From Armatimonadota bacterium (GTDB lineage: Bacteria > Armatimonadota > UBA5829 > JAUSEB01), in contig JAUSEB010000034.1 of assembly GCA_030650495.1 (NCBI GenBank), positions 1 through 34,423 of the forward strand: 34,423 nt of DNA, written 5' to 3'. This document shows positions 4,739 to 30,561 of the stretch, piece after piece. The notes beneath the pieces were generated by a model, which had not been told where the DNA came from, did not search any database, and saw only the letters and a program-made list of their open reading frames with translations. Made by a program: the position numbers and the translations under genes. Numbering within the stretch: the first letter of the stretch is position 1; every line of letters begins with the position of its first letter.

Positions 4739-4902
4739 AGAGTTCTCCTGCTGCTCTGAATTGTGTTCACCAAACCCGGTAATTATAGCATGGACCGGGG
4801 CGCTCTGAGAACCCGCCTGAGTCGGGCGGTTGAGGGTTGAAGGTTGAGGGTTGAGGGAATCCTATCTTTCGGCTTGTTCTTTGAAGCCGAAGCCTGAACC
4901 GT

Positions 4903-4949
4903 TGTTTCGGGATTTGAGTGGAGCGAAGCGGAATGGAAATCCCGAAACA
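4903..4949. repeat. TTTCGGGA...TCCCGAAA palindromic repeat (reverse orientation)
   Basis: gttgtttcgggatttgagtggagcgaagcggaatggaaatcccgaaacaagcc. Confidence 0.85.
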
Positions 4950-5084
4950 AGCCACGGATGTAATGTTGAATGTTGAAGGAGAGAGTGTTGGAAGCAATAC
5001 CTTAAACCTTCAACATTCAACTATCTCATCGCTTATCACCAGCTTTTCCTTCTCTCAACTCTAAACTCTGGTGGAATTCATCTA

Positions 5085-6187: not shown

Positions 6188-6718
6188 ATGCCCAAAGCGA
6201 AGGTGACCCTGGTCTCAGGGATGAAGTTTCGCGGGGAGGCGGAGTCAGGCCATTCGGTCACGATGGACGCTTCGTCGGAATTCGGCGGAGGAAACGCCGG
6301 TTTCCGTCCGATGGAGATGCTTCTGACCGCATTGGGCGGATGCACCGGGATGGATGTGATCAGCATTCTGCGTAAAAAGCGGCAGGTCGTGACCCATTAC
6401 GAAGTTCATGTGAGCGGGGAGCGAAGTTCTGAGCATCCCAAGGTGTTTACAAACATAAAGGTAGAGCACATTGTTCGAGGGAAAGGGATAGATCCTGCTG
6501 CGGTTGAGCGGGCGGTCGAGTTATCGAGCGCCAAATACTGCTCGGTCATTGGGATGCTTGGAAAAGCGGCGGACATAAATACCACGTATCAAGTGATAGA
6601 GGACACGGCGCCGAACTCTTTAGTAAACCAGATACTTCGGGACGAAAAACGAGTCCCGAAGGATAACAAGCCAAATCCCTATACTTCGGCTCGTTCTTTG
6701 GAGCCGAAGACAACGTAG
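6188..6718 (+). CDS. OsmC-family protein
   Basis: MPKAKVTLVSGMKFRGEAESGHSVTMDASSEFGGGNAGFRPMEMLLTALGGCTGMDVISILRKK...SSAKYCSVIGMLGKAADINTTYQVI; two OsmC cysteines present; start at 6188 preferred over 6122 because of the adjacent GGAGG. Confidence 0.9.
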   Translation: MPKAKVTLVSGMKFRGEAESGHSVTMDASSEFGGGNAGFRPMEMLLTALGGCTGMDVISILRKKRQVVTHYEVHVSGERSSEHPKVFTNIKVEHIVRGKGIDPAAVERAVELSSAKYCSVIGMLGKAADINTTYQVIEDTAPNSLVNQILRDEKRVPKDNKPNPYTSARSLEPKTT

Positions 6719-6725
6719 CCTTGTT

Positions 6726-6900
6726 AGCTTCGGCTTCAAAATGGGCGTGTTCAAAAACCGTCATTCCGAGGAGGAACGACGAGGAATCTGCTTTTCGGAG
6801 ACTCTGAATCGTGCTTAAAAGCAGATTTCTCGCTTCGCTCGAAATGACGTGTCGTGCCGTCCACCGGCTTTTTGAACACTCCCAAATACAAGCCGAAGCA
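6726..6900. repeat. Nested palindromic element, copy 1 (interior of CGTCATTCCGAG type)
   Basis: AGCTTCGGCTT ... GGGCGTGTTCAAAAACCG ... AAGCAGATTTCTCGCTTCGCTCGAAATGACG ... GGCTTTTTGAACACTCCC ... AAGCCGAAGC. Confidence 0.8.
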
Positions 6901-8221: not shown

Positions 8222-8380
8222 CGTCATTTCGAGCGGAGCGCAGCGGAGTCGAGAAATCTGCTTTTGGAACTAGCTTTCAGCTATCAGCCGTCAGCTTTCA
8301 GCTGAAAGCTGATAGCTGACGGCTGACGGCTGATAGCTTATAAAGAAAAGCAGATTCCTCCACTTAGGTCGGAATGACGG
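8222..8380. repeat. CGTCATTTCGAG...GGAATGACG inverted repeat with a second palindrome nested inside
   Basis: CGTCATTTCGAGCGGAGCGCAGCGGAGTCGAGAAATCTGCTTTT ... AAAGCAGATTCCTCCACTTAGGTCGGAATGACG; inner AGCTATCAGCCGTC(8279-8292)/GACGGCTGATAGCT(8325-8338). Confidence 0.8.
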
Positions 8381-10212: not shown

Positions 10213-11094
10213 ATGCAAATAGTTCATACGATTGCTGAGATAAGGAAGCTTGTTGGGCCGGCGAGGGCGGAAGGGAAGCTCGTTGGCCTGGTTCCGACCA
10301 TGGGGGCTTTTCACGCGGGGCATTTGGCTTTGATGAGCCGTGCCCGGCATGAGTGCGGCTTCGTGGTCGTCAGTATTTTCGTCAATCCCGCACAGTTCGG
10401 CCCTTCGGAAGATTATCAAAAGTATCCACGCGATCAAAAATCCGATGCGGAGAAGGCGGAGGTCGAAGGTGTGGATGTGATCTTCGCGCCGTCGGTTGAG
10501 GAGATGTACCCGGAGGGTTTTGGCTCTTATATAGAGGTTGTGGGGCTTACGGAAACGCTGGAAGGGGCGGTCAGGCCGGGGCATTTTCGCGGCGTCGCGA
10601 TCGTAGTGGCCAAGCTTTTTAATATAGTAGCGCCTGACAATGCCTACTTCGGCATGAAAGACTACCAACAGCTCAAAGTCATTCAGAAGATGGTGAGGGA
10701 TTTGGATTTCGACTTGGAAATCATTCCTGTTCCGACAATACGCGAATCCGATGGGCTCGCGATGTCTTCTCGCAACGTTTATCTCGACACAAAAGAACGC
10801 GCGGCGGCCACTATTCTATACCGTGCGTTGGAATTCGCCAAAGAGCGTGTATTGGAAGGTGAACGATACCCGGCGGCGCTTGAGGCGGCGATCCGGCGGT
10901 TTATCGAACAAGAGCCTCTTGCTAAAATCGACTATGTCGCAGTGGTTGACCCTGATACGCTGGAGAAGCTTGAGAAGATTGGGGCTTCGGTTTTAGTGGC
11001 GTTGGCGGTTAAGATTGGGAAGACCAGATTGATTGATAATAACGTTATCTTCGGCTTCAAAGAGGGAGCGTTCAAAACGCCGATTCCTCTGTAG
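10213..11094 (+). CDS. panC: Pantothenate synthetase
   Basis: VGLVPTMGAFHAGHLALMSRAR...VVSIFVNPAQFGPSEDYQKYPR...FFGMKDYQQL-type motif (AYFGMKDYQQLKVI)...MSSRNVYL...KTRLIDN. Confidence 0.95.
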   Translation: MQIVHTIAEIRKLVGPARAEGKLVGLVPTMGAFHAGHLALMSRARHECGFVVVSIFVNPAQFGPSEDYQKYPRDQKSDAEKAEVEGVDVIFAPSVEEMYPEGFGSYIEVVGLTETLEGAVRPGHFRGVAIVVAKLFNIVAPDNAYFGMKDYQQLKVIQKMVRDLDFDLEIIPVPTIRESDGLAMSSRNVYLDTKERAAATILYRALEFAKERVLEGERYPAALEAAIRRFIEQEPLAKIDYVAVVDPDTLEKLEKIGASVLVALAVKIGKTRLIDNNVIFGFKEGAFKTPIPL

Positions 11095-11195
11095 CTCGGG
11101 GCCTTGTGCCCCGTCTGCTGAGCGTAGATTCACTACCGCCGACCGGCCACAAGGGCCGGGGCTACGGTTTTAAACACTCCAAGAATAAGCCGAAG
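11049..11195. repeat. Nested palindromic element, copy 2; overlaps the 3' end of panC
   Basis: CTTCGGCTT ... GGAGCGTTCAAAACGCCGATTCCTCTGTAGCTCGGGGCC ... GGGCCGGGGCTACGGTTTTAAACACTCC ... AAGCCGAAG; core near-identical to 30340-30452. Confidence 0.85.
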
Positions 11196-12072: not shown

Positions 12073-12304
12073 GAATTTCCAAATGCAGACAAACGCCTGC
12101 TTTGGCAACAGTTTGTAGGGGCGAAGCATCTGCGTTTGTTTCTGATACAGTGTGCGGAGTCGTGGGGCAGAATCTTCGCCCCTACGGTTTAACGACGATT
12201 TCTCCACATTTGACACGCACCCGGGGAAGTGTTGCAGCTTGACACTACCCTCCAAGCGCCGCGATAATCGAAGTGTTCCTAATTCGCCTAAGTAGGACAT
12301 TAGA

Positions 12305-26100: not shown

Positions 26101-26155
26101 GGCTTGTTTCGGGATTTCCATTCCGCTGCGCTCCATTCAAATCCCGAAACACCGG
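26101..26155. repeat. TTTCGGGATTTCCATTCCGCTGCGCTCCATTCAAATCCCGAAACACCGG repeat
   Basis: Near-identical copies at 1271-1326 (same orientation) and 4903-4949 (reverse complement). Confidence 0.85.
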
Positions 26156-26346
26156 CGCTATTTCCTTCAACATTCAACAGGCTTCGGCTTCAAAGAACAA
26201 GCCGAAGCATAGGGATTCCCCTCTCTCAACTCTAAACTCTCAACTCAACCTTCAACTCATATTCATGTTTTGAGGCGCCTGCCGTTAGGTGGGGTAATTG
26301 CGCAAGCGCCTCTTATTTCCGGTAGAAGAATCATTCCGCCGGAAAT

Positions 26347-27994: not shown

Positions 27995-28096
27995 CGTTGT
28001 TAAAGCTGTCAGCTGACAGCTGACAGCTCTAATCTGCGCTTATCTGCGTTCATCTGTGGTTAACTCTTCCCCACTGCCGCGAAATCCGCTACAATT

Positions 28097-29347: not shown

Positions 29348-30289
29348 ATGCTGAAGAATTTCGGTGAATTACTGAAGGCGGTTGCATCAGAACCGGCGAG
29401 AAAAATAGCGGTGGCAGCCGCGAACGATAAGACTTTGGTCGCGGCGCTGAAACAAGCGATTGATGAGGATGTTGCCATCCCTGTTTTAGTTGGCGATAAG
29501 AAGATGATAAGCGGCTTCGCTTCAGAGCTTGGCTGGTCATTGGCTGATGGCCAGATAGTTGATTCGCCAAACGAGATAAGCGCGGCGAGAGAGGCAACGC
29601 GCCTCGTCCGGGAAGGCCGGTGCGAAATCCTGATGAAAGGACAGATTCACACGGATGACTTCTTGCGTGCTGTCCTCGATAAAGAAGCTGGGCTGAGGAC
29701 CGGAGCGGCGATGAGCCATGTGTTCATTCTGGAATTGCCTGCTCAAGAGCGCCTGCTTTTCGTCACCGATGGAGCGATGAACATAGCCCCCGATTTGGTC
29801 CGCAAGTCGGAGATTATCCTAAACGCCGTCTCTCTCGCTAACGCATTCGGCTTTGAAAAGCCGACAGTGGCTGTGGTGGCCGCGGTGGAGTTGGTCAATC
29901 CGGCTATGCCTGCCACGCTCGACGCGGCGGCGCTTGCCAAGATGTCCGACCGGGGACAGTTCCCGAACTGCATAGTAGACGGGCCATTCGGATTCGATAA
30001 CGCCGTCAGTGTTGCCGCCGCCCGGCAGAAGAAGATAAGTTCTCCGGTTGCGGGCAAGGCGGACATACTGCTGGCGCCGAACATAGAGGCGGGAAATATG
30101 CTCGTCAAATGCTTCTCCCATCTTTGTGGCGGTACAACGGCGGGAGTGTTGGTGGGAGCTTCGGTCCCAGTGGTTTTGACCTCAAGGGCTGACAACGCGG
30201 AAGCTAAGTTTTTATCTATCGCCGCCGCTGCGCTTATGGTAAACATGAGCCGGAGTGGGAATCTGAAAGTCGGAAAAGTACATTACTAG
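29348..30289 (+). CDS. Phosphate acetyl/butyryltransferase family protein
   Basis: CEILMKGQIHTDDFLRAVLDKEAGLRTGAAMSHVFILELP...LFVTDGAMNIAPDL...DGPFGFDNAVS...VAGKADILLAPNIEAGNMLVKCFSHL. Confidence 0.88.
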   Translation: MLKNFGELLKAVASEPARKIAVAAANDKTLVAALKQAIDEDVAIPVLVGDKKMISGFASELGWSLADGQIVDSPNEISAAREATRLVREGRCEILMKGQIHTDDFLRAVLDKEAGLRTGAAMSHVFILELPAQERLLFVTDGAMNIAPDLVRKSEIILNAVSLANAFGFEKPTVAVVAAVELVNPAMPATLDAAALAKMSDRGQFPNCIVDGPFGFDNAVSVAAARQKKISSPVAGKADILLAPNIEAGNMLVKCFSHLCGGTTAGVLVGASVPVVLTSRADNAEAKFLSIAAAALMVNMSRSGNLKVGKVHY

Positions 30290-30317
30290 CAGCCAACGGA
30301 TAAAGTCATCAACTATA

Positions 30318-30469
30318 CTTCGGGACACGCTTTGGGAATGTTCAAAAATGCCGATTCCTATGTAGCTCGGGGCCTTGTGCCCCGTCTGCCGAGCGTAAAT
30401 TCACTACCGCCGACCGGCCACAAGGGCCGGGGCTACGGTTTTTGAACACTCCCGCTTTTCGTCCCGAAG
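30318..30469. repeat. Nested palindromic element, copy 3
   Basis: CTTCGGGAC ... GGGAATGTTCAAAAATGCCGATTCCTATGTAGCTCGGGGCC ... GGGCCGGGGCTACGGTTTTTGAACACTCCC ... GTCCCGAAG. Confidence 0.85.
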
Positions 30470-30561
30470 AAACCTTGTTGTGGAGCGCTTCGGGATGAAA
30501 AGCGATCCCGAAGCATACTGAGGTGCATTACTGGCTACCGGCTGCTGCTGTATAGGTTTTA

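Follow-up and report, generated by a model that had tools for sequence, protein, structure and literature searches.

Insertion sequences are already known to enter the centres of REPs, and dimers of REPs have already been seen within larger palindromes. ISRm22 and ISPsy8 insert at the symmetry axes of REPs, and IS1397, ISKpn1 and ISPpu9/10 are also REP-targeting elements (PMC1525189). Among the REPs themselves, those of the GTAG type are linked to RAYT, while CGTC REPs are reported without a dedicated transposase; enclosure of REP dimers by a longer palindrome is described for H. neapolitanus (CGTC-1), A. variabilis (GTAG-15) and T. roseum (GTAG-23) (PMC3733652). In the Armatimonadota genome described here the two arrangements are combined, so that a single lineage shows both transposable elements at REP centres and REP dimers in palindromes, in copy numbers sufficient for testing in which order the events took place. 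A literature search found no paper combining Armatimonadota with REPs. As far as the literature searched shows, it is new that a single MITE, with a third class of REP as its target, has both the GTAG and the CGTC superfamily as cargo, that the layers recombine freely, and that the length of the target duplication tracks the length of the palindrome.

Nested loci and the outer palindrome

The window, a stretch of 34,423 nucleotides, is contig C115 of a MAG of an uncultured Armatimonadota bacterium (genome G000; 3.59 Mb in 464 contigs, 5.8% contamination, fragmented at repeats). A preliminary description had reported nested layers at 6726-6900, 11049-11195 and 30318-30469, with the second copy partly degenerate, and all three loci agree with it. 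At each of them an outer palindrome, P, is split into two halves by a middle layer, M1, which in turn encloses a core; all features of the three copies are given on the plus strand. In copy 1 the halves of P (6728-6742 and 6884-6898, with the duplication AAAT) flank a 141-bp M1 with a CGTC-type core (6743-6883), which contains a REP dimer at 6758-6849 (CGTCATTCCGAGGAGG ... CTCGAAATGACG). The halves of copy 2 (11049-11063 and 11181-11195, duplication AAGA) flank a degenerate M1 with a GTAG-type core (11064-11180). Copy 3 splits a 27-bp P into CTTCGGGACACGCTTT (30318-30333) and GCTTTTCGTCCCGAAG (30454-30469), each half including one copy of the 5-bp target duplication GCTTT (30329-30333 and 30454-30458); identical empty 27-mers are found elsewhere, for example on contigs C168, C372 and C406. 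Its M1 is 120 bp long (30334-30453), ends with GGGAATGTTCAAAAA and TTTTTGAACACTCCC and holds a GTAG-type REP dimer (GTAGCTCGGGGCCTTGTGCCCC ... and minus-strand GTAGCCCCGGCCCTTGTGGCC) at 30362-30436. Folded as a single DNA strand, copy 3 reaches -39.6 kcal/mol (z = -6.0; 0 of 200 shuffles equally stable); an Rfam search of the window matched no family. Each layer had been regarded as an inverted repeat: the layers are indeed palindromic, but together they do not make up the symmetric shells of a single palindrome. The outer layer consists of the halves of one split REP, and the duplication of 4-5 bp at the junction is direct rather than inverted.

All three M1 copies of the window lie at or between gene ends. 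The gene for pantoate-beta-alanine ligase continues across the left half of P and ends within M1 copy 2 (11049-11094), which provides the last residues of the protein (..NVIFGFKEGAFKTPIPL) and the stop codon.

P comes in two lengths, a palindrome of 26 bp (CTTCGGCTTCAAAGAACAAGCCGAAG and variants) and one of 27 bp (CTTCGGGACGAAAARCGNGTCCCGAAG). It displays the features of a REP, namely a short hairpin, a conserved unpaired tag, many copies and inverted pairs; the tag, ATA, follows P in nearly all copies among those listed and is neither GTAG nor CGTC, and the pairs, often found about 46-53 bp apart, are BIME-like. In the genome, 123 26-mers and 22 27-mers (at most 3 mismatches), about 145 in total, are empty; empty copies of P outnumber filled ones by about two to one and include sequences identical to reconstructed target sites of M1. 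Within the window, empty 26-bp copies are present at 4867-4892 (minus strand, one mismatch to the consensus), at 6684-6709 (minus strand, partner of the split P of copy 1 in an inverted P pair) and at 26182-26207 (plus strand), an empty 27-bp copy at 6635-6661 (plus strand), and an empty P-type palindrome, CTTCGGGATGAAAAGCGATCCCGAAG, adjoins copy 3 at 30488-30513 (plus strand).

Insertion of the MITE M1 at the centre of P

M1, which forms the middle layer, is a MITE without coding capacity whose terminal inverted repeat is GGGAGTGTTCAAAAA. The genome-wide inventory, based on pattern searches and inspected stretches, gave 158 matches to this single end with at most 2 mismatches, against 3 for the control, and 52 paired ends TGTTCAAA-N88..118-TTTGAACA (104 strand hits), whereas the reversed control had 0, so that the pattern is not due to chance. 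The complete copies number at least 52 and are of fixed length: 120 bp with a GTAG-type core and 141 bp with a CGTC-type core. The ends are exact 15-bp inverted repeats that lack a GTAG tag. Short size, absence of coding sequence, terminal inverted repeats, high copy number and target-site duplication all characterize M1 as a MITE; a transposase gene of its own, as in REP-targeting elements of the ISRm22/IS1397 type, is missing, since 120-141 bp leave no room for it. Numerous contigs of the genome terminate within an M1 copy, as repeats in a short-read assembly lead one to expect. M1 resembles the bacterial MITEs NEMIS, RUP and Nezha, which are short, non-coding, flanked by terminal inverted repeats and target duplications and present in many copies, and differs from them in its strict palindrome target and its REP interior.

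The duplications were scored on 48 M1 copies whose flanks are present on either side; the relative G001 contributed five of these. An exact direct duplication of 4 bp was found in all 32 clean cases with a 26-mer target, and one of 5 bp in the clean cases with a 27-mer target, which are only five (5/5); in every clean case 11 nt of P lie outside the duplication on each side. In the window, the 4-bp duplication AAGA of copy 2 is obtained when this copy is taken without its last C, and in one scored copy the duplication falls in an ambiguous T run. M1 occupies the exact centre of P, and its removal regenerates the intact palindrome. Since 4 bp are duplicated in 26-mers and 5 bp in 27-mers, the cuts always fall 11 nt from each palindrome end, and the duplication is therefore as long as the middle that remains between them. 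M1 inserts at the centres of P by staggered, symmetric cuts, and its orientation relative to P is random (14/13/13/9). An exact duplication is absent in 9 of the 48 scored copies, most of which have a mismatch or halves from differing P variants, as in hybrid copies, and one of which (C55:43057) lies outside any palindrome; these nine probably derive from recombination between copies, or from chimeric assembly of the 464-contig MAG.

The dependence of the duplication on palindrome length suggests that the target is recognized arm by arm, perhaps through cruciforms. Like the REP-targeting insertion sequences, M1 is found in clean copies at a fixed position of the REP, which for ISRm22 and ISPsy8 is the palindrome axis with short direct repeats, and in hybrid copies without matching direct repeats (PMC1525189). 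It is unlike them in being a non-coding MITE with a REP cargo and in having a duplication of 4 or 5 bp according to the palindrome, where ISPsy8, ISPpu9/10 and ISRm22 are reported with a single fixed value for each element (3, 2 or 6; PMC1525189).

REP dimers inside M1 and the origin of the nests

Two of the four core subtypes, A and A', consist of two inverted GTAG-REPs (GTAGCCTAGGGCCTTGTGCCC..); they show the GTAG foot, the hairpin and the inverted dimers of GTAG REPs and BIMEs, and they also occur as free copies. The GTAG pattern GTAGCNNNGGGCCTTGTGCCC has 104 matches in the genome against 3 for the control, and free GTAG dimers with unrelated flanks are found in many places. The cores B and B' are two inverted CGTC-REPs (CGTCATTCC../..AATGACG in the 141-bp copies), recognizable by the CGTC foot and the inverted (HH) dimers, of which a few were seen outside M1; one such dimer lies at 8222-8379 (plus strand) and carries another palindromic repeat, AGCTTTCAGCTATCAGC.., at its centre (arms 8272-8338). 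A second MITE frame, M2 (AGCAGCCAACGGATAAAGTC..GGACTTTATCCGATCCCTGCT), likewise carries GTAG dimers, and a lone M2 end, AGCAGCCAACGGATAAAGTC, is located just upstream of copy 3 (30288-30307, plus strand). All four core subtypes are present in both P types and in either orientation; this, together with the free occurrence of the layers, indicates that the layers are interchangeable and separable. Separate occurrence and free combination throughout the genome bear out the interchangeability proposed from the window; neither a composite of fixed order nor an absence of other copies, the outcomes opposed to it, was encountered genome-wide, where the inventory of the layers returned at least 52 complete M1 copies and about 145 empty P palindromes.

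Further elements were noticed in the window. Partly palindromic repeats of AGCTGTCAGCTGATAGC units are found at 1332-1363, 8272-8338 and 28000-28032, and one of these repeats occupies the centre of a CGTC dimer; an inverted repeat at 12115-12185 has GTAG at both outer ends (GTAGGGGCGAAGCATCTGC..) and a stem unrelated to the M1 cores; and the stop codon of a PTA_PTB-like gene (29348-30289) overlaps the outermost bases of the lone M2 end.

The cores resemble the REPs of Di Nocera et al. 2013 in the GTAG or CGTC at the hairpin foot, in the inverted dimers and in being in part free (PMC3733652). REP dimers in the middle of a palindrome are shared with the three species mentioned above, and the H. 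neapolitanus frame (GGGaaGCTT..GAAAaACC) is similar to M1 in size and layout; however, the frames of those species were not presented as MITEs that duplicate their target, nor as lying within a third palindrome, and two of the three species yielded no target palindromes free of REPs, unlike this genome with its empty P (PMC3733652). Here, moreover, one MITE frame carries both superfamilies, and Armatimonadota are not named in that work (PMC3733652).

M1 is very probably a non-autonomous MITE that is moved into P centres by a DDE-type transposase and has acquired REP-dimer interiors, the nests arising by serial insertion. Y1/HUH single-strand transposition is not known to make precise target duplications of 4-5 bp, and a DDE enzyme is proposed for M1 for this reason. 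Such an enzyme would choose the REP-like palindromes as targets and would make symmetric cuts in the two strands, each 2 nt into the loop and at a distance of 11 nt from the P end, which accounts for the observed duplication of the loop centre and the splitting of P into the halves that flank M1. M1 exists in at least four versions, the interiors of which are dimers of GTAG-type or CGTC-type REPs. Since each layer is itself palindromic, every insertion would create one more palindrome open to entry by other elements, and serial insertions would lead to nests of three to five layers. A further proposal, possible although on balance doubtful, is that the M1 transposase reads each arm of P, or the extruded hairpin, and cuts at a fixed distance, so that the target sets the duplication length and, with a REP cargo on board, the nests become self-feeding; if so, each M1 insertion would yield a new composite palindrome open to further ones. 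For CGTC REPs, transport as MITE cargo would be a possible route of spread, and the nests show several known repeat types stacking inside one another.

The same order of the three layers at every clean junction would also be expected if P arms, M1 ends and core spread as one composite element, the small P palindromes being its deletion remnants. This is scarcely credible: the junction repeats are direct (AAGA..AAGA), while symmetric shells would give inverted ones, M1 lies in P both ways round, every core occurs with every P type, GTAG cores are found alone or in M2, and empty P outnumbers filled P. The direct duplications also lead to the rejection of a scheme in which RAYT (HUH/Y1) enzymes move all the layers and treat M1 as a larger REP hairpin in single-stranded DNA. 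RAYT genes are indeed present in the genome, M1 folds as one long hairpin and has cores of GTAG REPs, which RAYT enzymes typically use as substrates (PMC3733652); nevertheless, the precision of the 4-5 bp duplications and the exact 15-bp ends without GTAG tag make this scheme very improbable. Selection for functional hairpins, acting as terminators or mRNA stabilisers with incidental nesting, would fit both the position of the window's three copies and the known occurrence of REPs downstream of genes (PMC3733652), but it would leave unexplained the direct duplications, the near-identical copies at dozens of sites and the presence of the cores within MITE ends, and it is improbable.

A different question is how the cores came to lie in M1. 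The terminal repeats may have repeatedly captured REP dimers, abortive transposition or gap repair replacing the interior, so that the cores were never inserted; this has a chance somewhat short of even, concerns only the origin of the core and is compatible with the transposase-driven insertion of M1 at the outer junction. No core-less M1 was seen, the core types have differing linkers on one side and abut the terminal repeat (CC) on the other, and GTAG dimers occur in two unrelated MITE frames, M1 and M2, all in agreement with capture; the constant place of the core in the frame and the fixed lengths would equally be expected from a single insertion followed by spread. Most likely, the REP dimers entered the M1 frames either by REP mobility, driven by RAYT, or by capture between M1 ends.

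Relatives, candidate enzymes and deeper nests

A search for an autonomous element bounded by M1 ends was negative both for this genome and for G001, the only relative with M1 among the genomes searched, so that the DDE assignment relies on the structure of ends and duplications. End analysis of transposases retrieved with PF01609 (five genomes) or PF05598 (two genomes) gave none with matching ends, and two apparently long M1 copies of G001 (C255 and C188) lack the second end. In genome G005 an insertion sequence of 855 bp (L190:1444-2298), with two ORFs and a DDE_Tnp_1 domain (PF01609), has ends GAGCGTGTACAGAAACC that partly resemble the M1 end; we take it to belong to the IS5 family, a candidate source of M1 to which no direct link was found. 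A search of 61 relatives and 291 genomes of the phylum with the terminal-repeat pattern detected arrays only in two genera of one family, that of the window and that of G001; the two remaining hits among the 291 genomes are at chance level. A 19-bp pattern of terminal repeat and core, run against all GTDB genome contigs, matched only one Armatimonadota MAG, E14_metabat.bin.108, in a search from which the window's own genome was possibly excluded.

A deeper level of nesting is seen in the relative, where M1 copies of 284-286 bp consist of the CGTC version with a palindrome, T (TTTCGGGATTT..AAATCCCGAAAC), inserted into the CGTC arm and with GAGC visible as a direct repeat at the junction. Insertion of palindromes into palindromes is established for M1 in P and for T in the CGTC core. 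The general proposal that palindromes insert into the centres of others therefore holds for the outer junction, by virtue of the duplications, the approximately 145 empty sites and the exact restoration of the target, and for this deeper level, with its GAGC duplication; for the entry of GTAG and CGTC cores into a pre-existing M1 centre it stays conjectural. On contig C99 of the window's genome, an M1-free CGTC dimer (L231:983) has an interior with two side-by-side T-type palindromes.

A TnpA_REP enzyme had been suspected behind the nests. Two RAYT genes are in fact present in the genome (NF047646, with scores on either side of the curated cut-off), and both could act as movers of REPs, but the middle layer behaves as a cut-and-paste (DDE-type) MITE and not as a RAYT product. 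One of the two, on contig C324 (L140:1255-1850), codes for 158 aa and lies between inverted GTAG hairpins (GTAGCCTGCTGCCGAAGCC..), the stem of which is unlike that of the M1 cores; the other, on contig C114 (L141:1703-2233), is flanked by T palindromes. Members of the T family (TGTTTCGGGATTT..AAATCCCGAAACA) are also present in the window, at 1276-1322, 4902-4950 and 26105-26151.
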